Shown piece after piece: positions 8,918 through 28,020 of a stretch of DNA of 35,267 nt. This DNA comes from Bacteroidetes bacterium SW_4_67_19. GTDB lineage: Bacteria; Bacteroidota; Rhodothermia; Rhodothermales; Salinibacteraceae. A model generated the notes under the pieces. It was given only the letters and a program-made list of their open reading frames with translations, did not search any database and was not told where the DNA came from. Position 1 is the stretch's first letter, and each line of letters starts with the position of its first letter. The stretch lies in contig PXTX01000006.1 in NCBI GenBank assembly GCA_003023275.1, positions 1 to 35,267 on the forward strand, given 5' to 3'. A program made the position numbers and the translations under genes.

Positions 8918-11335
8918 ATGGCCTCCGGCGATCCGTCGCCTTCCGATACGCCCCGCCCCGACGCCTCGCGCGCCGACGCGCTTTCTTCAGACGCGCAGCC
9001 GGCAGAGGCGGACCTCGAAACCGCCCTGCGCCCCGCGCGCCTCGACGACTTCGTCGGCCAGGAGAAGATCAAGGAGAACCTGCGCATCTTCATGACGGCA
9101 GCGCTCAAGCGCGGCGACGCGCTCGACCATACGCTGCTCTTCGGGCCGCCGGGGCTGGGAAAATGCATCACGTCCGACAGCATCGTGCTTACGGGGCAAG
9201 GCCTCCTGCCCTTTTGCGAACTGCTCCCCGAAGGGCTGGAGCCGGGCACGAGCCAAGCCGTCGACCTCGACGTGTGCGGCCTCGACGGGCTGGAGCCGGC
9301 CGCGCGCGTCTACGCCAGCGGGCGCACCCCGACGCGGCGCGTGACCACACGCTCCGGCTTCGTCCTCGAAGGCACTCCACAACACCCCGTGCGGGTGGCC
9401 ACCCCCGACGGGCCGCAATGGAAACGCCTCGACCAGCTTTCCCCCGGCACCCCCGTTGCTATCGCGCGGGGAACGGACGTGTGGGGCTCGGAGCGGCACA
9501 GGACAACCTGGACCCCAGACGCTAACGCAGACCGCCGCCGCCGCATGGAAGCGCGCGTCGGGCGCCTGCACACAGCGCTGGCGGGCGCGCTGGGACGTCC
9601 ACCGGCCGCCGTGGAACTGCGCACGGCCTACTGCTCGATGCCGAAGATCACCGCTTCGCCCACGCCGGAGCAAACCGTGCAGCGCCTCGGCCTGCCGCTC
9701 GCCGACGGCCGGGTCGTGGAGGGGGCCGAGCAGCCGTGGAGCCGCATTCCTCCCACAGAGCAACCGCGCAGCACGGTCGGGCAGCGCGAACTGACGCTGG
9801 ACCCCGATCTGGCGTACCTGCTCGGCGCACTGGTCGGCGACGGGCGCTTCGAGGGAGGCGCCCGCTCTCCGGCCTTCGTCATCACCTGTGACGAACCGGC
9901 CATGCAGACGACGCTTCGGCGCATCGGCCGGCGCGCCTTCGGGCGGACCCCGACGGTGCAAACGAGCCGTTCGAAAGCGCCCCGGCTCTGCTTCAGTCAG
10001 AACGTCGGAAAGGCGTGTCGGGCGTTCGGTATGAAAGAAGCCGGCGCCCGGGAAAAAGAAATTCCCTCCACTGTGCTAACGAGCCCCCGCGATGTCGCTG
10101 TCGGTTTTTTGCAGGGCCTCTTCGACGCGGACGGCCACGCGCGCTCCTCGGGGGGCGTGGAACTGGGCACGCGCTCGCGGGAACTGGCCCGGCAGGTGCA
10201 ACTCGCCCTGGCGAACCTGGGGATCGTCGCCCACCGCACCACGAAGGAATGCGCCGGCGCGCCATTTCAGAAGCTCTACGTAGGCGGACGCGACGCGCTC
10301 CGGTTCTACGACGAGGTCGGCTTTCGCCTCCAGCACAAGCAGGCCCAGCGCGCCGCGCTCGAAGAAAAAGAGCATGACACGCTCCGCTCTCCGAGCGATC
10401 CGCGCATCTTCTGGGACCGGGTGGGCACCGTAGAGGAAGACGAGGCCGAAACGTTCGATTTCGTGGTGCCGGGCACGCACTCCTTCGTGGGAAACGGCTT
10501 CTACAACCACAACACCACGCTGGCGCACATCGTCGCCGAGGAGATGGGCGCCAAGATCGTCACCACCAGCGGCCCCGTGCTCGAAAAGCCCGCCGCCCTC
10601 TCCGGCGTCCTTACCAATCTCGAAGCGGGCGACGTGCTCTTCATCGACGAGATCCACCGCCTCGCCTCGGTCGTCGAGGAGTACCTCTACTCCGCAATGG
10701 AAGACTACCGCATCGACATCGTGATCGACAGCGGGCCCAACTCGCGCACCGTGCAGGTCAAGCTCAAGCCGTTTACGCTCGTCGGCGCGACGACGCGCAA
10801 GGGGCTCTTGACCGCGCCGCTCCGCGCGCGCTTCGGCATCGACCTGCGCTTCGACTACTACCCCGCGAAGGTGCTCCAGCAGATCGTCGAGCGCTCCGCT
10901 GGCATCCTGGACGTGGACGTCACCGACGAGGGGGCCTTCGAAATCGCGCGCCGCTCGCGCGGGACGCCGCGCGTGGCCAACCGCCTCCTGCGCCGCACGC
11001 GCGACTTTGCGGAGGTGGAGGGCGAAGGCACCATCACCGAGACCATCGCCGACCACGCCCTCGGCGCTCTGGACGTGGACGAGGAAGGCCTCGACGACAT
11101 GGACGCGCGCATCCTGCTCACCCTCATCGAGAACTTCGGCGGCGGCCCCACGGGGCTGAACAACCTCGCCGTGTCGGTCGGCGAGGAGTCCGGCACCATC
11201 GAGGAGGTCTACGAGCCGTACCTCATTCAGGAAGGCTTCCTGGAGCGCACCCCGCGCGGTCGCGTCGCCGCCCCGCGCGCCTACCGGCACTTCGACATCA
11301 CGCCGCCGGAGGAGCAGGATTTGTTTGGGGGATAG
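8918..11335 (+). CDS. ruvB: Holliday junction branch-migration ATPase RuvB, intein-containing precursor
   Basis: The 805-residue reading frame is RuvB split by an intein at residues 83-532. The N-extein (1-82) has an extra acidic/Ala-rich start and the RuvB signatures [15 protein letters not shown] and [11 protein letters not shown] (Walker A). The C-extein resumes with [11 protein letters not shown], then [10 protein letters not shown] (Walker B), [19 protein letters not shown] (sensor 1 and arginine finger), [14 protein letters not shown] (sensor 2) and the winged-helix end ([27 protein letters not shown]). Spliced length would be 355 residues, normal for RuvB. RuvB is the hexameric motor that drives branch migration with RuvA before RuvC cleavage. 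Because the intein divides the P-loop between Lys and Thr, the unspliced protein cannot bind ATP properly, so activity requires splicing. No Shine-Dalgarno is seen. It converges with clpP. Confidence 0.97.
9164..10513 (+). mobile_element. RuvB intein with LAGLIDADG (DOD) homing endonuclease
   Basis: The intein is 450 residues. It opens with Cys (block [14 protein letters not shown]), has block B as GTPQHPVRV (the TxxH motif in the form T-P-Q-H), and ends with block [22 protein letters not shown], giving the terminal His-Asn. The +1 extein residue is Thr, a valid splicing nucleophile. The central part carries two dodecapeptides, [12 protein letters not shown] (precursor residue 298 on) and [12 protein letters not shown] (about 396 on), both with the catalytic Asp, so the endonuclease looks intact. 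All splicing residues are present, so splicing is expected (inference). The insertion point lies between K82 and T of GPPGLGK/TTLAHI, the most conserved DNA of the gene. Such P-loop GK/T insertion sites are known for inteins in other ATPases. Confidence 0.96.
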
Positions 11336-18975: not shown

Positions 18976-20100
18976 AAGCGCGGCGGCGGGCGCCAGACGG
19001 AGCGCGGTGTCGCGCAGGCGGTGCGCCCAGGCGCTTTTCGCGTGCCCCCAGTCGCCGAGCTGCCGCGAGCGGCGCTGCACGCGGCGAGCCTTGTTCATGC
19101 GCCGGTTTTCGTATTCGGCAAAGACGGCCTCCGGGGCGTCGTGCTCGTCGAATGCCAGCGCCAGGGCGTAGGCGTCCGCGACGGCCTGCGCCGGCCCCAG
19201 TCCGAGAGCGGGAGACGCGGCGTGCGCGGCGTCGCCCAGCAGCCCCACGCGCCCGCGATGCCACTGGTCGAGCGGGGCAAGGTCCTGGAGTTCGACGCGC
19301 GTAATGGCCTCCGCCGGCGTGGCGTCGATCAGGGCGCCGGTAGGCCCGGGAAACTCCGCGTAGTCGTCAGCGAGGGAGGCTTTCGCGTCGTCCGGATTCG
19401 GGCGCGGGCGCGGCGCTCGAGAGGCGCGCTGCGCGGCGCACCAGAACACCCGGTCGCGCTCGACGGGCAGCAGGACGAAGCGTGCGCTTTTCCCCCAGAG
19501 GTCGCGCAGCACGCGGTCCTGCTCGGACGGGTCGTCCGTCGGCGCCGGGGCAACCCCCCAGTGGCTCACTCGTCCCGTCTCGCGCGGGGCGGCGCTGGGA
19601 AAGAGCCGCCGCCGCACGCCCGAGTCCGCTCCGTCGGCCCCGACGAGCACTTCACCGCCCACTTCCGTGCCCTCCGCAAGGCGCGCGGTGACCTGCTCCT
19701 CCGTTTCGGAAAAGCCCTCGCAGGTCGCCTCTCGGTTCAGCACATGCGCGGGCAGGCGCCCGGCCAGCAGCGACGTGAGCGCGCCGCGCGAAAGGGCCAC
19801 GCTGGGCGCCTCGAACGAAGCGCCGGTGGCCAGATTGACGGACCACAACTCCTCGCCGCCGGCCGTCTGGACGACGGCGCGCTCCAGCACGGTCCCGGCG
19901 CCCTGGACGGCCCCGGCCAGCCCCCACCGCTCGAAGAGCTGCATCGCGCCCGGCGGCAGCCAGAGGCCCGGTCCGACGCGAGCGGGCGGCTCGGACGCCG
20001 GCCCTGCTGCGTCGTAGACGGCCACCGGCAGCTGGCGCCGGCGCAGCGCCAACGCGGCAGCGAGCCCCCCGACGCCGCCGCCGATGATGAGCACACGCAT
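18955..20100 (-). CDS. FAD-dependent aromatic-type monooxygenase
   Basis: The 381-residue protein belongs to the PHBH-type class A flavoprotein monooxygenases. It starts MRVLIIGGGVGGLAAALAL (FAD GxGxxG, residues 7-12), has the middle motif LVGADGADSGVRRRL (DG motif) and the second FAD motif GRVGLLGDAAHAASPALGLG (GD motif), followed by QAVADAYALA. These enzymes use NAD(P)H and oxygen to hydroxylate or epoxidise substrates; similarity in pattern is to salicylate hydroxylase/zeaxanthin epoxidase-like members. The substrate cannot be inferred. The usual NxxDA/LADAxxLA helix is intact, so it should be active. It lies downstream of anmK and an SDR remnant, and its 3' end is tandemly duplicated. Confidence 0.92.
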   Translation of the reverse strand: MRVLIIGGGVGGLAAALALRRRQLPVAVYDAAGPASEPPARVGPGLWLPPGAMQLFERWGLAGAVQGAGTVLERAVVQTAGGEELWSVNLATGASFEAPSVALSRGALTSLLAGRLPAHVLNREATCEGFSETEEQVTARLAEGTEVGGEVLVGADGADSGVRRRLFPSAAPRETGRVSHWGVAPAPTDDPSEQDRVLRDLWGKSARFVLLPVERDRVFWCAAQRASRAPRPRPNPDDAKASLADDYAEFPGPTGALIDATPAEAITRVELQDLAPLDQWHRGRVGLLGDAAHAASPALGLGPAQAVADAYALALAFDEHDAPEAVFAEYENRRMNKARRVQRRSRQLGDWGHAKSAWAHRLRDTALRLAPAAALRRTLFS

Positions 20101-20157
20101 GGCGACCCGCGGGGTGAATGCAGAGGCAGCGAAGCGAGACCTTTCCCCAACCCCGCG

Positions 20158-20238
20158 CTACTCCGCCGCGACTGAGCCGCCGTCGACGCGGTAGTTGGCA
20201 CCGTTGATGAAGGACGCTTTTTCCGAAGCCAGTGGCGA
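20158..20238 (-). pseudogene. C-terminal remnant of a short-chain dehydrogenase (SDR)
   Basis: The last 25 codons before the stop at 20158 read LASEKASFINGANYRVDGG followed by SVAAE. This is the standard C-terminus of classical SDR oxidoreductases (FLASxxASFITGxxxxVDGG). Nothing of the Rossmann fold, the catalytic YxxxK or a start is left; upstream the frame immediately meets anmK. It is a decayed or recombined gene tail between anmK and the monooxygenase. Confidence 0.8.
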
Positions 20239-20257
20239 ATGAGGTGCGCAAGCAAGC

Positions 20258-21382
20258 TCAATCGCCCTTCGGCAATCGGCACTCATGCGCGAAGACGGCC
20301 GAGCAGAGCGCCTCCTTGGCGTCCGAGTCGATGCCGTAGTGCGAGGAGGTGCGCACCTCGACGCCGGCAAACAGGTCCTGGAGCATGTGCATGAGCGCGC
20401 GGTTCCACACCCCCCCGCCGCTGACGATGAGCGTGTCGAGGGAATGGCGTTCCTCGACGAACTGTTCGTAGGCCAGATGGACCGAGCGGGCCGTCAGCGC
20501 GGTGGCGGTGGCCACGAGGTCGCGCGCGGAGAGGTCGTCGGCGCGCTCGAGGAAGGCCTCGGCGTAGTCGACGCCGTAACGCTCGCGGCCGGTGGACTTG
20601 GGCGGCGGGCGGTCGAAGTAGTCGTCCTCGGCGATCAGCGCGTCGAGCAGGTCGTTGTGCACCCGGCCCTCGGAGGCGAGCGCGCCGTCTTCGTCGTAGG
20701 GCGTGTCGAAGAGCCGCTCCATGAGCGCGTCGATAACCATGTCGGCGGGGCCGGTGTCGAAGGCGTAGACGTCCTCGGCGGACGCGCCGGAAGGCAGCAC
20801 CGTGAGATTGGCGATGCCGCCGAGGTTGAGCATGCCGCGCGTCTCGTCAGGGTCGGCGAAGAGGGTGTAGTCGAAGTAGGGCACCAGCGGAGCGCCCTGG
20901 CCGCCGCAGGCCATGTCGGCGGGGCGGAAATCCCCCACGACGGACGTGCGCAACAGGTTGGCCAGCACCGAGGGGTCGCCGATCTGGAGCGTGGAATGCA
21001 CCTCTTCGCCGGCGAAGGGTTCGGGGTCGGGCACGTGGTGGACGGTCTGCCCGTGCGAGCCGACGAGGTCGAGATCGTCCATGTCGAGGCCGGCTTCGCC
21101 GACCGCCTCGCGCACCGCGTCGGCGTAGCTGTGGGCCACGCGCACGTCCAGCTGCGAGAGCGCGCGCACCGAGGAGGTTTCGTCGGTGGAGTTTTTCAGC
21201 AGGTACTTGCGCAGGACCGTCCCGTACGACGCTTCGACGTAGGCAAGCGTTTCGCACTCCAGCGCGCGCCCGCTGCCGGAGAGGCGCGCCACAGCGGCAT
21301 CCACGCCGTCGAGCGACGTGCCGCTCATCAGCCCGCACACGATGCGGGGATTCTCTTCGAAAAGCTGCTGGAGGCGTTGCAT
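20258..21382 (-). CDS. anmK: Anhydro-N-acetylmuramic acid kinase
   Basis: AnmK hydrolyses and phosphorylates 1,6-anhydro-MurNAc to MurNAc-6-phosphate in peptidoglycan recycling. The 374-residue protein carries the diagnostic phosphate loop GLMSGTSLDGVDAAVARL near the start, then DLVGSHGQTVHHVPD, LQIGDPSVLANLLRTSVVGD, GGQGAPLVPYFD, MLNLGGIANLTVLP, FDTGPADMVIDALM and LIVSGGGVWNRALMHML, all in family order. Length is typical (about 370). The reaction is cytosolic. The M19 dipeptidase elsewhere in the window might supply related material, but no murQ or ampG is nearby. The start codon is directly preceded by a simple repeat leader. Confidence 0.97.
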   Translation of the reverse strand: MQRLQQLFEENPRIVCGLMSGTSLDGVDAAVARLSGSGRALECETLAYVEASYGTVLRKYLLKNSTDETSSVRALSQLDVRVAHSYADAVREAVGEAGLDMDDLDLVGSHGQTVHHVPDPEPFAGEEVHSTLQIGDPSVLANLLRTSVVGDFRPADMACGGQGAPLVPYFDYTLFADPDETRGMLNLGGIANLTVLPSGASAEDVYAFDTGPADMVIDALMERLFDTPYDEDGALASEGRVHNDLLDALIAEDDYFDRPPPKSTGRERYGVDYAEAFLERADDLSARDLVATATALTARSVHLAYEQFVEERHSLDTLIVSGGGVWNRALMHMLQDLFAGVEVRTSSHYGIDSDAKEALCSAVFAHECRLPKGD

Positions 21383-21385
21383 TTA

Positions 21386-21425
21386 TGGGGTGTGGGAGTG
21401 CGGGGATGTGGATGGGAGTGCGGGC
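21386..21425. repeat. G-rich simple repeat upstream of anmK
   Basis: GGGAGTGCGGGG and GGGAGTGCGGGCG units with five G-runs lie within 25 bases of the anmK start. On the plus strand they meet the loose G-quadruplex pattern. On the anmK mRNA the same bases are C/A-rich (CGCACTCCC units) and would be unstructured. Confidence 0.6.
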
Positions 21426-21480
21426 GTTTTTGTCCCGCACGTTGCCCACCGGCGAGCCTCCATTCCCTCCTCATCGACGG

Positions 21481-22227
21481 TTACTCGTCTTGCTGCGCTT
21501 GCGCTTCCATCGTTTCGGCCTGGCGGCGGTACTCCTCGGCCTTCGCCGGGTGCTCTTCGGCCAGGCGGTGGTAGACGCGCGCGGCTTCGGCGTGCTGGCC
21601 CTGCGCCTTGTAGATGCGCGCCAGCGTAGGCGAGACCATGTCGTCCGTGTCCGCCTCGTCGAGGTCCGGGGTGGGCGCGTCGTCCGGGTCGGGGACGGGG
21701 TCGATGCGCGCATCCTGCAAGTCTTCGATCAGGCCGTCAAGGTCGTGGGCTTCCGACTCTTCCTCCTCCGGCGTCGCCGCTTCGAGTTCTTGCAGCACCG
21801 TGCGCTCCGACACGCGGCGCTGCTGTTGCTCCCGGGGAGAGAGTTCCGAAACCGCTTCGGCAGAAGGCTCTTCGGGAGACGTTTCGGTTTCGGAACCCGT
21901 TTCCGACTCCGTTTCGGAAGAACGTTCCGGCGCCAGCACGTCGGCGGGAAGCGTCAGGGAGGCGGCCTCGGCCTCCGGGCGGCGGGCGGTGCGCCGAAGC
22001 CCGGCACGCACGGCGGGGCTGCCCGGCTGGAGCAGGGCGGCGCACCGCCAGTGCCGGCGGGCCTGGTCGGGGCGTTCGTGCAACTCGCAGGCGCGCGCCA
22101 GCGCGAGGTGCGCCGTCACGTGCCCCGGCGCCGCCTCGACCCACTGCTCCAGCGCCGACACGTCCGAGGCGGTAGCGGCGCCTTGCTCGACGCGGTCGAG
22201 AAGCGTGGGAAAATCGGCGCGAGGCAT
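21481..22227 (-). CDS. Tetratricopeptide-repeat protein of unknown function
   Basis: The 248-residue protein has a TPR-like helical start (LEQWVEAAPGHVTAHLALARACEL; HERPDQARRHWRCAALLQPG, about 25-75). A highly acidic Ser/Thr/Glu-rich linker follows (about 95-190; ETESETGSETETSPEEPS). A final TPR unit (VSPTLARIYKAQGQHAEAARVYHRLAEEHP, about 198-230) precedes a Gln/Glu-rich end. No signal peptide or membrane segment is visible, so it is probably a cytosolic scaffold. It precedes anmK on the same strand with a 98-base gap. No partner can be named. The acidic linker fits the acidic proteome of this organism. Confidence 0.75.
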   Translation of the reverse strand: MPRADFPTLLDRVEQGAATASDVSALEQWVEAAPGHVTAHLALARACELHERPDQARRHWRCAALLQPGSPAVRAGLRRTARRPEAEAASLTLPADVLAPERSSETESETGSETETSPEEPSAEAVSELSPREQQQRRVSERTVLQELEAATPEEEESEAHDLDGLIEDLQDARIDPVPDPDDAPTPDLDEADTDDMVSPTLARIYKAQGQHAEAARVYHRLAEEHPAKAEEYRRQAETMEAQAQQDE

Positions 22228-22455
22228 GGGAAGCGTGTTGCGTATTGCGGAATGTCAGCAGCCCGAATCGCCTGCGCTCTGGCGCTACTGGCAAAGCCGT
22301 TCGGCAAGCATGGACGCTCGCCCCCTTTTTTCAGCGTCCGCAGAGGGGGGCCTTTGCGTTTCACGTTTTACGTGCTTCCTTCCCGCGAGCCCATCAGAGC
22401 GCGGCGGCGATGATGCGTAAACAGCATTTCGGGCTGATTTTGTTCCCCTCTCGGG
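22228..22455. repeat. Repeat-rich gap with hairpin between glycosyltransferase and TPR genes
   Basis: Next to the TPR start lie GCGTGTT-GCGTATT-GCGGAAT units (22233 on). Near the other side lie GCGTTTC-ACGTTTT-ACGTGC units (22356-22374). In between, GGACGCT (22312-22318) pairs perfectly with AGCGTCC (22333-22339), and CCCCC/GGGGG form an alternative pairing. It may terminate the glycosyltransferase transcript; no U-tract. No gene was seen. Confidence 0.55.
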
Positions 22456-23979
22456 CTATCCGGCGGCCGCTGGCACGCGGCGCGCCTGGGCGACGGCGGC
22501 CCCCGCCACGAGCGCAAAGCCCGCCGCGAAGAGCGCCTGAAAGGGGAGCGCCGCCCATTCGCCGGCGGCGGCAACCACGACGAGACCGGCAGCGCTGTAG
22601 ACGGCAAGCGCCCGTTCGCCCCACGCGAGCAGGCGCGGGCCGCGCAGGGCGTCGGCGGCATAGCGCGTGCGCCACCACGGCGCGCGCTGCCCCTCGCCTG
22701 CCCCGGCGGCGCCCGTCTCGCCGGCGCCCGTCTTGGGCGTGCGCGCAAACGGCGTGCGCCGTCCCAGCAGGGCGCGCGCCACAGCCCGCGTGTTGCTGAG
22801 GGCCAGCCCGACGGTGCCGGCCAGAAAGAGCGGGAAGCGCGTCGCAAAGCGCCTCGGCCAGTCGGGGTGGAGGGCGCGCTGCGCGAAGAGTTGCGCGAGG
22901 ACGACGCCCCCAAATCCGACCATGCCGACGCTCAGGGCCGCGAAGTAGAACGCGCCCGGGCCGGCGCCGGTGTGTTTGAGCCAGACGAGCGCCGGGTGCG
23001 TCAGCGCGGCCAGCAGCACGAGCGGGTAGGCCAGGTGCGCGGTGAGGTGAACGGTGCCGGCGGCCTTCACGCGGAGCGGCTGCGTGGAGCGCCAGAGCGG
23101 GCCGAGCAGTTTGCGCGCCGTTTCGATGGCGCCTTTGGCCCAGCGCGCCTGCTGGGCGCGGAGGGCGCCGAGTCCGGCGGGCAGTTCGGCGGGCACTTCC
23201 AGGTCCGGCAGGTAGCGCAGGCGCCAGCCGCCGAGCTGGGCGCGGTAGCTGAGGTCGAGATCCTCGGTGAGCGTGTCGGTGTGCCAGCCGCCGGCGTCCT
23301 CGATGCAGGCGCGGCGCCACAGGCCGGCGGTGCCGTTGAAGTTGAGGAAGCACCCGGCTGCCTGGCGCGCGCCCTGTTCGAGGGCAAAGTGCGCGTCGAG
23401 GCCCACGCCCTGCGCTTTCGTCAACAGGGAATGCTCGGCGTTGAGGTGACCCCAGCGCGCCTGCACCATGCCGATGTCGCCCGAGGACAGGAGCGCAGGC
23501 ACGGCGCGCCGCAGGAAGTCCGGCGGCGGCACGAAGTCGGCGTCGAAGACGGCCACGAGCGTGCCGCGCGCCAGGCGGAGGCCGTTTTTGAGCGCGCCGG
23601 CCTTGTAGCCGGTGCGGTCGTCGCGGTGAACGACGCGCACCTCGCGCCCGCGCCGGCGCCAGTGTTCGGCGCGGCGCTCCGCCAGCGCCGTCGTCTCGTC
23701 GGTCGAGTCGTCGAGGATCTGAATGTCGAGCCGGCCTTCGGGGTAGTCCAGCCGCGCGCAGGCGTCGATGAGGCGCTCGGCGACCCTCGCTTCGTTGTAG
23801 AGCGGAAGCTGCACCGTCACGACGGGCCACTCGTCGGGCGCAGGCGGCGTTTCCTCTGGCTCCGGCACGGGTCCGTCGCGCAGGCGCTCGGTGCGCAGGT
23901 GCACGAGCGCCAGCCAGCCCCAGTGCCCCCCGTAGAGGAGCAACCCGGCAATGGCAAGCGCGTAGAGCGCGGCGACCAT
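22456..23979 (-). CDS. Membrane family 2 glycosyltransferase (cellulose-synthase-like)
   Basis: The 507-residue protein starts at 23979 with a membrane helix (MVAALYALAIAGLLL). The frame is open further upstream, but that stretch only translates simple repeats. The GT2 catalytic domain (about 55-290) shows VVTVQLPLYNE, IQILDDSTDET (UDP binding), AGALKNGL, VAVFDADFVPPPDFL (DxD), TLTEDLDLSYRAQLGGW (TED base) and QQARWAKG (QxxRW-like). The conserved acceptor-side order is that of processive glucan/mannan synthases. Several hydrophobic C-terminal segments (about 305-340, 350-380, 395-415, 455-500) form the membrane channel region. No PilZ domain or partner BcsB was seen, so the product (polysaccharide or glycolipid) is unknown. 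Confidence 0.92.
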   Translation of the reverse strand: MVAALYALAIAGLLLYGGHWGWLALVHLRTERLRDGPVPEPEETPPAPDEWPVVTVQLPLYNEARVAERLIDACARLDYPEGRLDIQILDDSTDETTALAERRAEHWRRRGREVRVVHRDDRTGYKAGALKNGLRLARGTLVAVFDADFVPPPDFLRRAVPALLSSGDIGMVQARWGHLNAEHSLLTKAQGVGLDAHFALEQGARQAAGCFLNFNGTAGLWRRACIEDAGGWHTDTLTEDLDLSYRAQLGGWRLRYLPDLEVPAELPAGLGALRAQQARWAKGAIETARKLLGPLWRSTQPLRVKAAGTVHLTAHLAYPLVLLAALTHPALVWLKHTGAGPGAFYFAALSVGMVGFGGVVLAQLFAQRALHPDWPRRFATRFPLFLAGTVGLALSNTRAVARALLGRRTPFARTPKTGAGETGAAGAGEGQRAPWWRTRYAADALRGPRLLAWGERALAVYSAAGLVVVAAAGEWAALPFQALFAAGFALVAGAAVAQARRVPAAAG

Positions 23980-23983
23980 GGAA

Positions 23984-24196
23984 GCGTGATGCGTGTTGCG
24001 TGATGCGTGAAGCTGCCCGTCTACGAACGCTGAAGGAGCATTCGAGCGTCGACGCTTTCGGACGGTCGTTTTCACCTGTAGATATCTGATCGCAAGCGCG
24101 TCGGTCTGCTGTCATCACGCGCCCCGACTAATGGGAGGAAGTGCTTGGGGCGGAAGTGCTTGGGGTACATCACGCATCACGAATCACGCATCACGC
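23984..24196. repeat. Two opposed 7-base repeat arrays forming a long inverted repeat
   Basis: Left array: GCGTGAT, GCGTGTT, GCGTGAT, GCGTGAA (23984-24011). Right array: CATCACG, CATCACG, AATCACG, CATCACG (24168-24195). The left 27 bases match the reverse complement of 24170-24196 at 25 of 27 positions. Between them, GGAAGTGCTTGGGGC is repeated in tandem (24137-24165). The left array directly precedes the glycosyltransferase start. No gene was found in this 271-base gap (23980-24250). Confidence 0.9.
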
Positions 24197-24250
24197 CTTT
24201 CCCAACGGGCAACGCGAACGAAAGCAGGCAGTCCCGCCCGTCCGAAACCG

Positions 24251-26302
24251 TCACCGCTTGTCTTCAAAGAACATCAGCCCGCCGCGTGCTGCGCCGATGA
24301 AGAGATCCGCGTCGCCGTCGCCGTCGATGTCGGCGAAGTCCGGGGCGGCCAGTTCCGGCGCGTCCTCGACGAGCGCGAAGGGACCGGCCTTCTCGGCGCG
24401 CACGAACCGCGGGTCCCGCGCGGAGCCTTCGTTGCGAAAGAGCGCGATCCCCGCCCCCTCGCTGCCGACGACGAGGTCCTGGTCGCCGTCGCCGTCCACG
24501 TCATGGAAGACGGGGGCGCTGCGCCGGTCTACGCTCGCGCCTTTCAGCAGGCCGTTCTCGCGCTGGAACTGCGGCTGCTGGGGCGTGCCCGTGTTGCGGA
24601 AGAAGGTCAACGACCCGGCCGTCTCGCCGAGGACGAGGTCGAGGTCGCCGTCGCCGTCGAGGTCGGCGAAGGCGGGGGCCGGGTGGCTGCCGCGCCCCAG
24701 CTCGGCGAGGACCGTGCCCGTTTCGGCAAATTGCGGGTCGCTCGCCGTGCCGGTGTTCTCGTGGTAGCGGAGGGAGTTGTTCCACGTGCCCATCACCAGA
24801 TCCGGGTCGCCGTCGTCGTCGAGGTCGGCCAGCGCGGGGGCGCGATTGTACGCCTCGGGCGCGAGGGCGAGCGTGTCGGCGAGGCGAAAGCGCGGGTCGG
24901 CAGGGCCGCCGGTGTTTTCGTAGCGGAGGACGGGGCCTTCGGTGCTGCCCTTCGCGGTCCCGATTTTGCTTCCGACCAGGAGGTCCTGGTCGCCGTCGTC
25001 ATCGAGGTCGGCCAGCGCGGGGACGCTTTCCAGCCCCACGTCGATCATCGAGAGGTACTGGCGCGCGCGCAGGGCGTACGAGCCGCCGGCGGTGGTGCGC
25101 TCGTAGAAGTAGAGGTTGTTCGCAGCGGTGCGATCGGGGTTGTAGGCCCCCCCGATGACGCCGATGAGGAGGTCTTGAAGCCCGTCGCCGGTGAGGTCGC
25201 CGATGGCGGGAGCGTTGTAGCCGGTCGTGGAAAGCGGATTGCCTCTCGGGAAGGGCACCGGGTCGTTCGAGAAGTCGAGGGTTTCGCAGCCGCCCCGGTT
25301 TTCCAGCAAGAGCAAGCCCGGCTCGAAGTAGTCGCCCCAGAGCAGGTCTTGGTCGCCGTCGCCGTCGGCGTCGGCGAAGGCCATCGTGTTGGCGCCGTGC
25401 TTGGCGCTGGGGTTTCCAGTTGCGGGTTTCGCGTTGCGGGTTCGGGGGCCGCCGCCGGGGGGTCCGTCGTCGTTCGAGCCGCCCAGCGGATCGCCGCTGC
25501 CGCTGCGGCCGGGCACGGGGCGCTGCTGCGTGGGCTGGCCGCCGGGCCCAAACTGCTGGACGATCTCGATGCCGGCGAAGTTCTCGTTCACCAGCCGAAA
25601 CTGCGGCACGTCTTCCGGGCCGACTTCGCCGGTGGCTTCGTAGCGCGTGACCGTCCCATCGAGGCGGCCGACGAAGAGATCCGGCTTGCCGTCGCAGTCC
25701 ACGTCGGCGACGTTGGGGATGTTCTGGCGGTCCGAAAAGAGCGGCTCGCCGCCGACGGTGCGCAGCGTGTCCTTCGCCAGCTCGAACCGCGGGTCGCCGT
25801 CCGAACCCGTGTTGTGATAGTAGCGCAGGTAGCTGTACGGCTGCTCGGCCAGCAGGTCCAGCAGGCCGTCGCCGTCGAGATCGACGAAGCGGTACCACTC
25901 GCCGACGGCGAGGTCGCGGTAGTCGCTGGAGCGCCACGCGAAGCGGGCGGGGGCGCCCGCGGAGGCGGTGTTTTCGAAAAACATGACCTGTCCGCTCTCT
26001 TCCTGAATGAAGAGGTCCCGCGCGCCGTCGCCGTTGATGTCGATGATCTGCGGGCGCGGCACGTTGAAACCGCCCAGGAAGGGCACGTCGTAGGCGTCGC
26101 CGCCGGCGCTCTGCACCGGGAAGGGCGTCACACGCCGCGCGTAGCGCTGGTTTTCGGCGCTGGCGCCGTCGTTGCTATCGGCCGGCGCAGTTGCGCGCTC
26201 GCTGCCGGCGCAACCAGCGGCCAGGAGGATGAGGATAAGGAGTGCGGGAGTGCGGGGGTACGGGGGGGCGGGAGGGTGTCGCTCTGCGGGCGGAGTGCTC
26301 AT
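24251..26302 (-). CDS. Lipoprotein with about ten FG-GAP/VCBS calcium-binding repeats
   Basis: The 683-residue protein, started at 26302, has a Pro-rich leader, hydrophobic ALLILILLAAG and a lipobox Cys31. The rest is a beta-propeller array of FG-GAP/VCBS type, each blade with a calcium-binding DxDxDG loop: DINGDGARDLF, DLDGDGLLDLL, DVDCDGKPDLF, DADGDGDQDLL, DLTGDGLQDLL, DLDDDGDQDLL, DLDDDGDPDLV, DLDGDGDLDLV, DVDGDGDQDLV and DIDGDGDADLF. Blades alternate with N-T-G-T or ENTG strands. Such proteins are surface adhesins or binding scaffolds; no catalytic domain was seen. It follows the YVTN-propeller gene by 63 bases, probably co-transcribed. A simple repeat sits in the signal-peptide codons and another in a linker (residues near 285-298). 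Confidence 0.92.
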   Translation of the reverse strand: MSTPPAERHPPAPPYPRTPALLILILLAAGCAGSERATAPADSNDGASAENQRYARRVTPFPVQSAGGDAYDVPFLGGFNVPRPQIIDINGDGARDLFIQEESGQVMFFENTASAGAPARFAWRSSDYRDLAVGEWYRFVDLDGDGLLDLLAEQPYSYLRYYHNTGSDGDPRFELAKDTLRTVGGEPLFSDRQNIPNVADVDCDGKPDLFVGRLDGTVTRYEATGEVGPEDVPQFRLVNENFAGIEIVQQFGPGGQPTQQRPVPGRSGSGDPLGGSNDDGPPGGGPRTRNAKPATGNPSAKHGANTMAFADADGDGDQDLLWGDYFEPGLLLLENRGGCETLDFSNDPVPFPRGNPLSTTGYNAPAIGDLTGDGLQDLLIGVIGGAYNPDRTAANNLYFYERTTAGGSYALRARQYLSMIDVGLESVPALADLDDDGDQDLLVGSKIGTAKGSTEGPVLRYENTGGPADPRFRLADTLALAPEAYNRAPALADLDDDGDPDLVMGTWNNSLRYHENTGTASDPQFAETGTVLAELGRGSHPAPAFADLDGDGDLDLVLGETAGSLTFFRNTGTPQQPQFQRENGLLKGASVDRRSAPVFHDVDGDGDQDLVVGSEGAGIALFRNEGSARDPRFVRAEKAGPFALVEDAPELAAPDFADIDGDGDADLFIGAARGGLMFFEDKR
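25411..25446 (-). repeat. Simple repeat inside the FG-GAP lipoprotein gene
   Basis: GTTTCCAGTTGCGG, GTTTCGCGTTGCGG and GTTCG units lie in frame in a low-complexity linker (encoding RTRNAKPATGNPS). They are of the same kind as the repeats in the intergenic gaps, suggesting that the repeat can enter coding sequence without breaking it. Confidence 0.7.
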
Positions 26303-26365
26303 GCCGTTTCGTCGCTGCTCTTTTTTCAGAATGCCAACTCCACCTTCAAACCGTCCCACCAACGT

Positions 26366-27775
26366 TCACGGGCGCACGCTCAAGCCCGAGGGATCCTGGT
26401 CGGCCCGGAGCACCTTGACGACCTCGTTGGTCTGCGTGTCGATGACGGCGACGACGCCCCGGGTTTCGTCGCCAAAGACGCCCGGATAGCGCGGCGCATA
26501 GGTGCCTTCGACGTTGCTGCCAGTGACGTAGACGTAGCGCCCGTCGGAGCGGACGGCGCTGCCGTGCGGCTGCGCGAGCGCGTCGTGGCGGATCGTCGCC
26601 GTGACTTCGTGGCTCTGCGCGTCGATGACGCTGACGGTGCCGGCGGTCTTCTGGGGCACGTAGAGGCGGTCGCCGCCCGGCGTGTAGCTGGGGTGCCAGG
26701 GCTGCCCGCCGAGCTGGAGGCTGTCGGTGACGGTCGGCGCGAGGGGCGTCTCGGCGGCGATGTCGAAAAAGAAGAAGGTGCCCGAGGTCTGTCCGCCGGC
26801 GGCCATCGCCTGCCCGTCGGGGCGGACGGCGAAGTGGACGAGCGTGTTGACGGGGCCGCCCATCGAGGTGAGCTTCGTCTCGCCGGTGGCGGCGTTGACG
26901 CCGGCGACCTGGTTGCGCGCCAGGCTGGCGACGTAGACCTGCTTGCCCCGCGGGTCCACCTCCAGCGCGTGCGGGCGCGGAAAAAAGACGTCCACCTGCC
27001 GCAGGCTCAGGTCGCTCCCGTCGATGATGCCGATCCGCTTCGGCGGGTCGACCGCGCTCATCGAGCGCCCCACGAAGAGGCGGCCGGAATTTGCGTCGTA
27101 CTCCATCAGGCCCGGCACTTCCATGTTCACCCGCCCGACGATCTCGTTGTCGCGGTTGAACTTGAGCACGCGGTTGGCCCCGATGAGCGAGACGTACCAG
27201 TATGTGCCGTCCGGCGTCACAGCGGTGTCGTGGGGCTTGGCCTTCGGCCCGAAGCCGCGCTCGGTCAGGTCGACGGTGCCGATGACGCGGTTTTCCTCGG
27301 CGTCGATGATGGTGACGAGCGCGCCGGCTTCGTTGGCGACGTAGAGGCGGTTCTGCACGTCGGCGTAGGGCGCCGTACCCGCGCCGCTTTTGGCGCCGGC
27401 CTCGATCCACTGGCGCACACGTTCGAGCTGGGCCTCGGTGGGCGCGCCGGTGCGGCCCTCGGCGCGGGCGTGCTCGGCCACTTCCACCAGCAGGCTGTGC
27501 TCGGCGTCGCCGGGAATGACGACCGTGCCGTGCTCGGAGCCTTCGATGAAGCGTTGCCACGACGAGGCGTCCACTTCCTCGTCTTCAGTGAGAAGGGGAA
27601 CGAAGGTGTCTTCGAGCAACGGCTGCACGTCGCCGAACGAGGGCGCGCCGCTGTTTTCGACGTCGCTCGTCTCGTCTGTCGCGGCGGGACCGCCGGTGGT
27701 TTGCGCGCTGCCGGCGCACCCGGCGGCGACGGTGAGCAGGAGCGCGGCGGCGAGGAAGAGGAAACGGCGTTTCAC
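26366..27775 (-). CDS. YVTN-type beta-propeller lipoprotein with a heme-less cytochrome-like N-domain
   Basis: Start at GTG 27775 gives a lipoprotein signal MKRRFLFLAAALLLTVAAGC (Cys20), total 469 residues; an ATG at 27832 would place 19 odd residues in front. Residues about 45-130 (SFGDVQPLLEDTF...VVIPGDAEHSLLVEV...LERVRQWIEAGA) match the layout of planctomycete-type cytochrome c domains, but the CxxCH heme motif is absent. From about residue 135 a seven-bladed-type propeller follows with YVTN-like strands: NRLYVANEAGALVTIIDAEE, GTYWYVSLIGANRVLKF, GKQVYVASLARNQVAGV, DRLYVPQKTAGTVSVIDAQ, GRYVYVTGSNVEG and VVAVIDTQTNEVVKVL. Role unknown; such proteins are typically exported binding or redox-associated proteins. 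The promoter region contains a 26-base palindrome. Confidence 0.88.
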   Translation of the reverse strand: MKRRFLFLAAALLLTVAAGCAGSAQTTGGPAATDETSDVENSGAPSFGDVQPLLEDTFVPLLTEDEEVDASSWQRFIEGSEHGTVVIPGDAEHSLLVEVAEHARAEGRTGAPTEAQLERVRQWIEAGAKSGAGTAPYADVQNRLYVANEAGALVTIIDAEENRVIGTVDLTERGFGPKAKPHDTAVTPDGTYWYVSLIGANRVLKFNRDNEIVGRVNMEVPGLMEYDANSGRLFVGRSMSAVDPPKRIGIIDGSDLSLRQVDVFFPRPHALEVDPRGKQVYVASLARNQVAGVNAATGETKLTSMGGPVNTLVHFAVRPDGQAMAAGGQTSGTFFFFDIAAETPLAPTVTDSLQLGGQPWHPSYTPGGDRLYVPQKTAGTVSVIDAQSHEVTATIRHDALAQPHGSAVRSDGRYVYVTGSNVEGTYAPRYPGVFGDETRGVVAVIDTQTNEVVKVLRADQDPSGLSVRP

Positions 27776-27823
27776 TGTGTGGTGCGTACTTCGCGGAAGG
27801 GGGAGACGGTATTTTACATCGCG

Positions 27824-27849
27824 TAGGGGCACGATATATCGCGCCCCTA
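27824..27849. promoter_or_regulatory. 26-base palindrome upstream of the YVTN gene, candidate operator
   Basis: Arms TAGGGGC (27824-27830) and GCCCCTA (27843-27849) flank a second perfect palindrome, CGATATATCG (27832-27841); only positions 27831/27842 do not pair (A/C). It lies 49 bases upstream of the GTG start. The minus strand just downstream holds TGTAAAAT, an extended -10-like sequence (27811-27818). It fits a dimeric regulator's operator. Confidence 0.55.
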
Positions 27850-27871
27850 TGGGTCGTTAAAAATGTTTTTG

Positions 27872-27922
27872 TAAAACCAAAACGAGCGACGGGCGGGGCG
27901 CAAAGGCCACACCCGCCGCTCG
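27872..27922 (-). terminator. Rho-independent terminator of the choice-of-anchor-B gene
   Basis: On the minus strand a G/C-rich stem, CGAGCGGCGGG pairing with CCCGTCGCTCG (one mismatch; 27883-27922), is followed by TTTTGGTTTTA (27872-27882). The position, about 100 bases after the stop at 28021 and before the next gene's palindrome, suits a terminator separating the two units. Confidence 0.7.
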
Positions 27923-28020
27923 ATTCATCCGGCGCGATTTTTATTAAACGACACGAGCAACAGGCAGGACGCGTGCGGCCCGACGCCGTCCACGGTCCGC
28001 CGTCCCGAATCCGAACGGAT

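Follow-up and report, generated by a model that had tools for sequence, protein, structure and literature searches.

The window analyzed in this study is a stretch of 35,267 nucleotides (contig PXTX01000006.1, positions 1 to 35,267) from Bacteroidetes bacterium SW_4_67_19, whose genome bin is called G000 below. Two genes on the minus strand, one for a GT2-like glycosyltransferase (22456-23979; its NCBIfam matches all lie below the curated cut-offs) and one for an FG-GAP repeat protein (24251-26302, assigned with Pfam), are separated by an inverted repeat, in which positions 23984-24010 pair with 24170-24196 at 25 of 27 bases, as the preliminary description had reported. About 4e-5 arm pairs of this type are expected in the window from its base composition. 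Tandem Repeats Finder resolves the left arm into a heptad array of 3.9 units of GCGTGAT (23984-24010, plus strand) and the right arm into 4.1 units of CATCACG (24168-24196, minus strand). The arrays oppose each other across a loop as described, which measures 159 rather than 156 bases. A three-unit pattern with up to three mismatches occurs four times in the window, compared to a mean of 0.00 in 100 shuffles. The called start codon of the glycosyltransferase gene ends at 23979 and abuts the left array at a distance of 4 bases; the FG-GAP gene, which lies 54 bases from the right array, keeps its own end (EDKR*, with EDRR* in the congener). Neither flanking gene stops on an array TGA.

The DNA between the two arrays is composite. 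Next to the left array lies the conserved core of a dispersed family (24011-24112, plus strand). The family profile R1 matches 23998-24120 with an E-value of 1.1e-23 in its own genome; the profile takes in two left heptads, and the window copy is among its 26 source copies. Directly at the core edge follows the first right-arm unit CATCACGC (24113-24120, minus strand), and nested within the right arm is what appears to be another repeat in decayed form, module 2 (24121-24167, plus strand), a likeness judged by eye from aligned copies. It contains the 15-base tandem duplication noticed earlier between the arrays, which Tandem Repeats Finder places at 24133-24165. Module 2 (GCCCCGACYGGAGGG...GTCATCCCCTCGCGGGGG...GGGGTGC) is a short dispersed repeat found mostly between core and right arm. 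It is present at 21 sites in the fetched stretches, 18 of them within 101 bases of a core; besides the window, L023, L027, L052, L061, and other loci carry instances, and it also occurs apart from any core (C31:20065, C9:14035, C130:8955). The 15-base duplication looks like a remnant of module 2, which many copies carry between their core and their right arm. A second family copy in the window has degenerate arms, GCGTGTTGCGTATTGCGG ... TTTCACGTTTTACG, and occupies 22233-22372 on the minus strand (outer limits approximate; core match 22248-22365, E 1e-15). The called gene 21481-22227 has its start codon 5 bases from this copy.

Some further features of these genes and their surroundings were recorded. 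An ORF of 1231 aa at 24131-27826 (plus strand), taken for a gene by a simple ORF list and by our first gene call, lies opposite the FG-GAP gene and its neighbor and looks like a shadow frame. At the start of the orthologous glycosyltransferase gene, the congener G002 (L133, C85) and G008 from another genus (L135, C8) carry, in their intergenic DNA, other opposed purine/pyrimidine-rich repeats of the GGCAAAAGGGAAGGGGG...CCCTTTTGCC type, judged by eye to have the purine strand inward as well. Elsewhere in the window, a RuvB-like gene of 805 aa (8918-11335, plus strand) has its best RuvB stretch in the C-terminal part (532-796), and the middle of the protein (about 290-530) matches intein-bearing proteins; therefore, it is likely an intein-interrupted ruvB.

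To follow the preliminary proposal that the repeat is a miniature element with further copies in the genome, we searched G000, a bin of 1.86 Mb that is 62% complete, with a 286-base query around the site. This returned 129 matches at E<=10, many of them short and array-only, and about twenty spanning much of the inter-array part. The aligned copies have in common a core of about 95 bases, which is bounded by a left array that ends in GCGTGAGGYTGC and a right arm that begins with TCATCACGC, and these core/arm junctions (GCGTGAGGYTGC..., ...TCATCACGC) recur across 26 aligned copies. The 26-core alignment was drawn from 35 aligned copies, leaving out five that were truncated or poor, three that were over-long, and C39, which is without the left array; R1 is a sequence-only profile built from these cores. 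With R1, G000 yields 110 copies at an E-value cut-off of 1 and 97 at a cut-off of 0.01. The proposal is supported: the repeat belongs to a dispersed, lineage-specific family, and sites without the core exist in congeners. Many short, non-coding, dispersed copies (97 at E<=0.01 in 1.86 Mb) and terminal inverted repeats, here opposed heptad arms that match at 25 of 27 bases in the window, are the attributes of a MITE. At E<=0.01 the same-genus bins G002 and G001 (G000, G001, and G002 are 56-62% complete) have 15 and 5 matches and G008, from another genus of the same family, has 7, while G021 gave one weak match (27 genomes of the family searched). Across the class, 4 of 244 genomes had an R1 match at E<=1e-4 under stricter filters. 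The G000 contigs C9, C139, and C48 end inside element matches; therefore, the element probably breaks assemblies and the copy number would be a lower bound.

Genes around the copies were called with our own script, trained on the fetched stretches (76 stretches, 370 kb, 346 genes), with no outside annotation. The analysis covered 90 of 91 profile rows down to an E-value of 7.4e-6, with C101:3997-4080 left out. No copy among the 90 falls within a called gene; in 10 cases there is an overlap of 2-67 bases with the edge of one. Element-bearing gaps are tandem in 66, convergent in 10, and divergent in 9 cases (for 5 copies, a called gene is missing on one side), compared to 136, 25, and 24 element-free gaps in the same stretches; the median tandem gap is 254.5 bases with and 142 bases without an element. 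Enrichment between convergent genes was not seen (10 of 85 element gaps versus 25 of 185 element-free gaps). Since the gap-class counts are alike with and without the element, gap class does not point to a role as terminator or promoter.

Empty sites in relatives were the second check proposed at the outset. The core is absent from the congener at all six collinear sites, where the sequences were read directly, with the flanks too diverged to place the junctions. Collinear G001/G002 stretches were available for two contigs and the window, and absence means no R1 match at E<=0.01 on the congener contig there. At five sites, the stretch between the flanks measures 315, 335, 249, 339, and 339 bases in G000 and 98, 174, 115, 108, and 244 bases, respectively, in the congener, which is thus shorter by 95-231 bases; the sixth congener gap is longer (G000 262, congener 531 bases). 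The window copy itself is uninformative in this respect, because G002 has the two neighboring genes on separate contigs. At single sites, loss in the congener could also explain the difference.

A tree was calculated from 26 G000 copies, 7 of 15 from G002, 2 of 5 from G001, and 6 of 7 from G008. The six G008 copies cluster in a single clade (support 0.905), with a likeness of 63% among themselves and 45-49% to others; most deeper nodes are weakly supported. G000 copies are 62% alike among themselves and 55% to congener copies; G002 copies reach 52% among themselves, which does not exceed their likeness to G000 copies (55%), and a separate burst in G002 was not seen with the 7 of its 15 copies in the tree. 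These results fit amplification in G000 and in G008.

The suggestion that the second array arose by inversion of the first was not supported, since the two arms of a copy resemble each other no more than arms taken from different copies do. Unit similarity within a copy is 0.349 versus 0.314 shuffled (p 0.23; the 17 of 90 copies with at least three units on both arms), and left and right unit numbers are uncorrelated (rho -0.02, 90 copies), many copies having fewer than two recognizable units on one side. This lack of within-copy resemblance also led us to reject the idea that arms are kept alike by pairing, and a further candidate, unit types changing together on both arms, did not hold inside G000. 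With neither arm resemblance nor correlated unit numbers, the arrays therefore appear to vary independently, as expected from slippage.

Paired arrays have a fixed polarity. The preliminary description had considered that arrays might elsewhere always be single and randomly oriented; single arrays do occur beside paired ones, but the paired arrays nearly always have one orientation. Among 244 genomes of the class, a CGTGA array precedes a TCACG array in 182 matches and the reversed order gave 0, using a pattern that requires two units per side, separated by a loop of 4-34 bases, and that counts overlapping matches within one array multiply. The 182 matches are spread over 20 genomes; a single genus of the same family contributes 159 and a single genome 50. 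We also examined 80 of at least 118 stretches from named genomes, counting unique adjacent array pairs within 400 bases. Among the matches listed there, 28 pairs are CGTGA-first, 1 is TCACG-first, and 13 are same-strand. Again among the matches listed, the 28 CGTGA-first pairs represent 26 loci, mostly Chloroflexota according to the record titles but also bins of Desulfococcaceae, Verrucomicrobiaceae, and Pimelobacter. Both loops and cores vary from lineage to lineage. G029 and G197, which belong to other families of the order, carry opposed heptads around short cores of their own that are partly palindromic (e.g., CGTGAGGGTGCTTGCC...GCACCCTCACG), and these arrangements occur repeatedly in either genome. 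Very long arrays of the CGT unit type occur at L142, L157, and L167 (Desulfococcaceae HSG8) and L216 (Oscillochloris bin, up to 37 units), and L201, L207, and L216 have a short core in common, CGTGATCGGTCAG...CCCGGTCACG.

The array unit consists of CGT plus 4 bases, mostly CGTGATG. Read inward, an ideal CGTGATG array shows TGA in all three frames; read outward, it has no stop and no ATG, GTG, or TTG. In the window copy, the right arm shuts all three inward frames and the left arm two, leaving one open. Many genes end in these stops. Array-edge-to-stop distances fall into the one phase of seven that places an array TGA on the stop in 36 of 52 cases (p 4e-19; 52 of 60 stop-side distances, with eight beyond 26 bases excluded), and 34 of 70 genes with their stop side up to 60 bases from a core end on a TGA that has an in-register CGT unit on one or both sides. 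Ten genes could be compared with a congener orthologue, a set that leaves out C42:4396-4533 (spurious-looking match) and C20:12133-13518 (orthologue not found). Four of them end on an array TGA (G000/congener tails ALFRDS*/ALFGRI*, AAVRDA*/VLRAAR*, DWRRV*/DWRHGA*, and EEWGDA*/TWTEQ*), another four retain their native end (LLREV*/LLREV*, PVAA*/PVAA*, EDKR*/EDRR*, and PAAAG*/RGAAG*), and two differ without an array TGA. Stop-bearing units make up 185 of 246 units in arms facing 3' gene ends versus 130 of 201 facing 5' ends (Fisher p 0.017; units are not independent, and 17 units cut by a stretch end were scored stop-free).

Gene contexts in the named genomes were judged with a longest-ORF caller, which is crude and biased by stops and starts inside arrays, so that the following counts carry no weight. 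Among the matches listed, 35 of 115 arrays lie inside longest-ORF calls; on the stop side, 37 arrays among those listed point inward (28 of the 37 in TGA phase) and 8 outward; on the start side, 22 of the listed arrays point outward versus 10 inward, against a stop-cap rule.

An all-frame stop cap as the sole cause of the polarity is weakened by two observations. The 25 inverted repeats examined in relatives include one arm pair without stops, CGTATTGCGTATTTCGT, which is CGT-first and keeps the polarity, and GGGNATC heptads follow a strand rule although stop-free, as far as described in PMC4692102. None of the 25 inverted repeats has reversed polarity.

On balance, we consider the inverted repeat to be probably a copy of a non-autonomous element with heptad-array ends that is lineage-specific, non-coding, and dispersed through intergenic DNA. 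A core of about 95 bases with opposed arrays of 7-base units would have reached its highest copy number in this species, with at least some of the increase following the split of the species in this genus. Spread most likely proceeded by copying or transposition in trans, for which neither enzyme nor target-site duplication was found, and variable, uncorrelated unit numbers suggest that the arrays lengthen and shorten independently by slippage. The element would persist where it is least harmful, in intergenic gaps and often up to gene edges. Its fixed polarity may help there, because an inward TGA unit (7 = 1 mod 3) would shut every frame within about 20 bases and, outward, an ideal array would bring no stop or ATG/GTG/TTG to disturb the next gene; this stop property may be one reason why the polarity is kept.

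The element is MITE-like and is not filed as a proven MITE or REPIN because target-site duplications and a Y1 transposase in the genus were not found. The longest shared flank word averaged 2.69 versus 2.82 in shuffled flanks (p 0.81; 29 copies with at least two units on both arms), giving no signal of target-site duplication; such duplications wane with age, according to the part of PMC10969869 concerned with them. Like RUP, Correia/Neisseria, CIR, and MITEAba12 elements, it has about 100-160 bases, is non-coding, mostly intergenic and present in many copies, and has inverted ends; all-frame stop codons have been noted for RUP, the 155-base Neisseria form, and MITEAba12 (in passages of PMC2229807 and PMC6382973). 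In contrast to the fixed terminal inverted repeat of bacterial MITEs, its ends are tandem heptad arrays of variable length, and it further differs from them in that target-site duplication and a parent Y1 transposase were not found and the copies have diverged (62% alike).

Heptad arrays in themselves are known. TAACTGA repeats of Beggiatoaceae, cyanobacteria, and some Bacteroidetes, with 2-6 copies per set in the type genome, are mostly intergenic and lie few bases from start codons; they have three-frame stops on one strand and overlap gene ends (as described in PMC4679880). Our arrays share with them the 7-base unit, intergenic position near starts, all-frame stops, and overlaps with gene ends. 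The account in PMC4679880 gives 169 direct sets versus one indirect, with stops on the strand running towards the next start; unlike these, the arrays described here are opposed, have their stops directed into the gap, have a common core, and consist of CGT + 4 units. The TAACTGA unit in direct arrays was not found here. GGGNATC heptads of Xanthomonas and Nostoc are also intergenic, and their strand likewise depends on the neighboring genes, being antisense upstream of ORFs and sense after stops (abstract of PMC4692102). They differ in being a G-quadruplex unit without a stop codon, and that abstract mentions no opposed pairs or core. An opposed arrangement with a core and an orientation rule is not found in the related literature compared, as far as these sources describe their repeats, and a search of the open literature for written-out forms of the repeat gave no paper; with most subscription papers outside the scope of this search, this is weak evidence of novelty.

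The alternative that survives best assumes that heptads arise by slippage at each gene edge, with the core being a separate old repeat between them. If units are sense after stops and antisense before starts, two arrays per gap would yield an inverted repeat automatically. The independence of the arms of one copy in unit type and number agrees with such boundary arrays, as do the named genomes, mostly Chloroflexota, whose opposed arrays (among the matches listed) enclose short, differing loops, and the stop-free GGGNATC heptads follow the very same strand rule in the account of PMC4692102. However, the core/arm junctions recur over 26 copies; therefore, arms and core appear to travel together, and we regard this alternative as unlikely, if worth keeping in mind. 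A broader proposal, which we advance as speculation, is that opposed CGT heptads are a recurrent, convergent, or horizontally spread feature of several phyla, i.e., strictly oriented polar gene-boundary caps built and kept by a strand-specific process tied to transcription or translation, and that elements ride on them.

A structured RNA or leader/attenuator, in which the hairpin controls downstream translation or ends the upstream transcript, is improbable. Folding of the 231-base strand, carried out as had been proposed, did give a strong stem (-95.3 kcal/mol versus -73.0 +/- 4.7 in 200 shuffles, z -4.8, each of which it beats). Proximity to starts would suit a leader, 11 of 45 start-facing arrays ending 1-6 bases from the start codon, and the core is opposite to the genes in 17 versus 5 of the 22 tandem cases among the 30 best copies. 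But over all 66 tandem copies the orientation is 38 opposite and 28 same (p 0.27), gap classes show no clear bias, and RNAalifold of the 26 cores found no core helix in the consensus, which has 5 arm pairs only (-1.25 kcal/mol, one with a double change). No match in 20000-28000 reached an Rfam gathering score, and with both RNAalifold and Rfam negative we rejected the candidate. The earlier suggestion of a large hairpin stopping the FG-GAP transcript was not supported either: intrinsic terminators (GC-rich hairpin, then T run) were predicted at three sites in 23700-24500 (0.7 expected) but at none in 23984-24196, the terminator-like site on the FG-GAP strand lying outside the element at 24240-24225, and convergent gaps are not enriched.

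Movement as a REPIN-like element by a RAYT (Y1 HUH) transposase that binds the opposed arms is very improbable: as in REP/REPIN systems, small opposed palindromic ends are present in about 100 intergenic copies, and G008, G029, and G197 have one Y1_Tnp match each (3 of 9 genomes), but a search limited to the Y1 type (PF01797) gave 0 matches in the 56-62% complete bins G000, G001, and G002, where the core is commonest, and none in G013, G021, and G023, and the ends are tandem heptads rather than the GTAG/CGTC-tagged hairpins that PMC3733652 describes for REPs, so that RAYT/REPIN was rejected with no Y1 transposase found in the genus.

With the repeat read as one copy of a non-autonomous intergenic element, what seemed to be a local hairpin becomes part of a family of about 100 copies open to comparative study. 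The orientation rule for paired heptad arrays is sharp in the class (182 versus 0 matches), and named genomes of several phyla point in the same direction (28 versus 1 pairs among the matches listed). If the arrays are indeed caps, they would stop any entering frame and offer the next gene no false start or stop. The frequency of heptad arrays in bacterial intergenic DNA is an old question, and the orientation rule, together with the array TGA stops, makes selection for stop caps versus strand-specific slippage directly testable.
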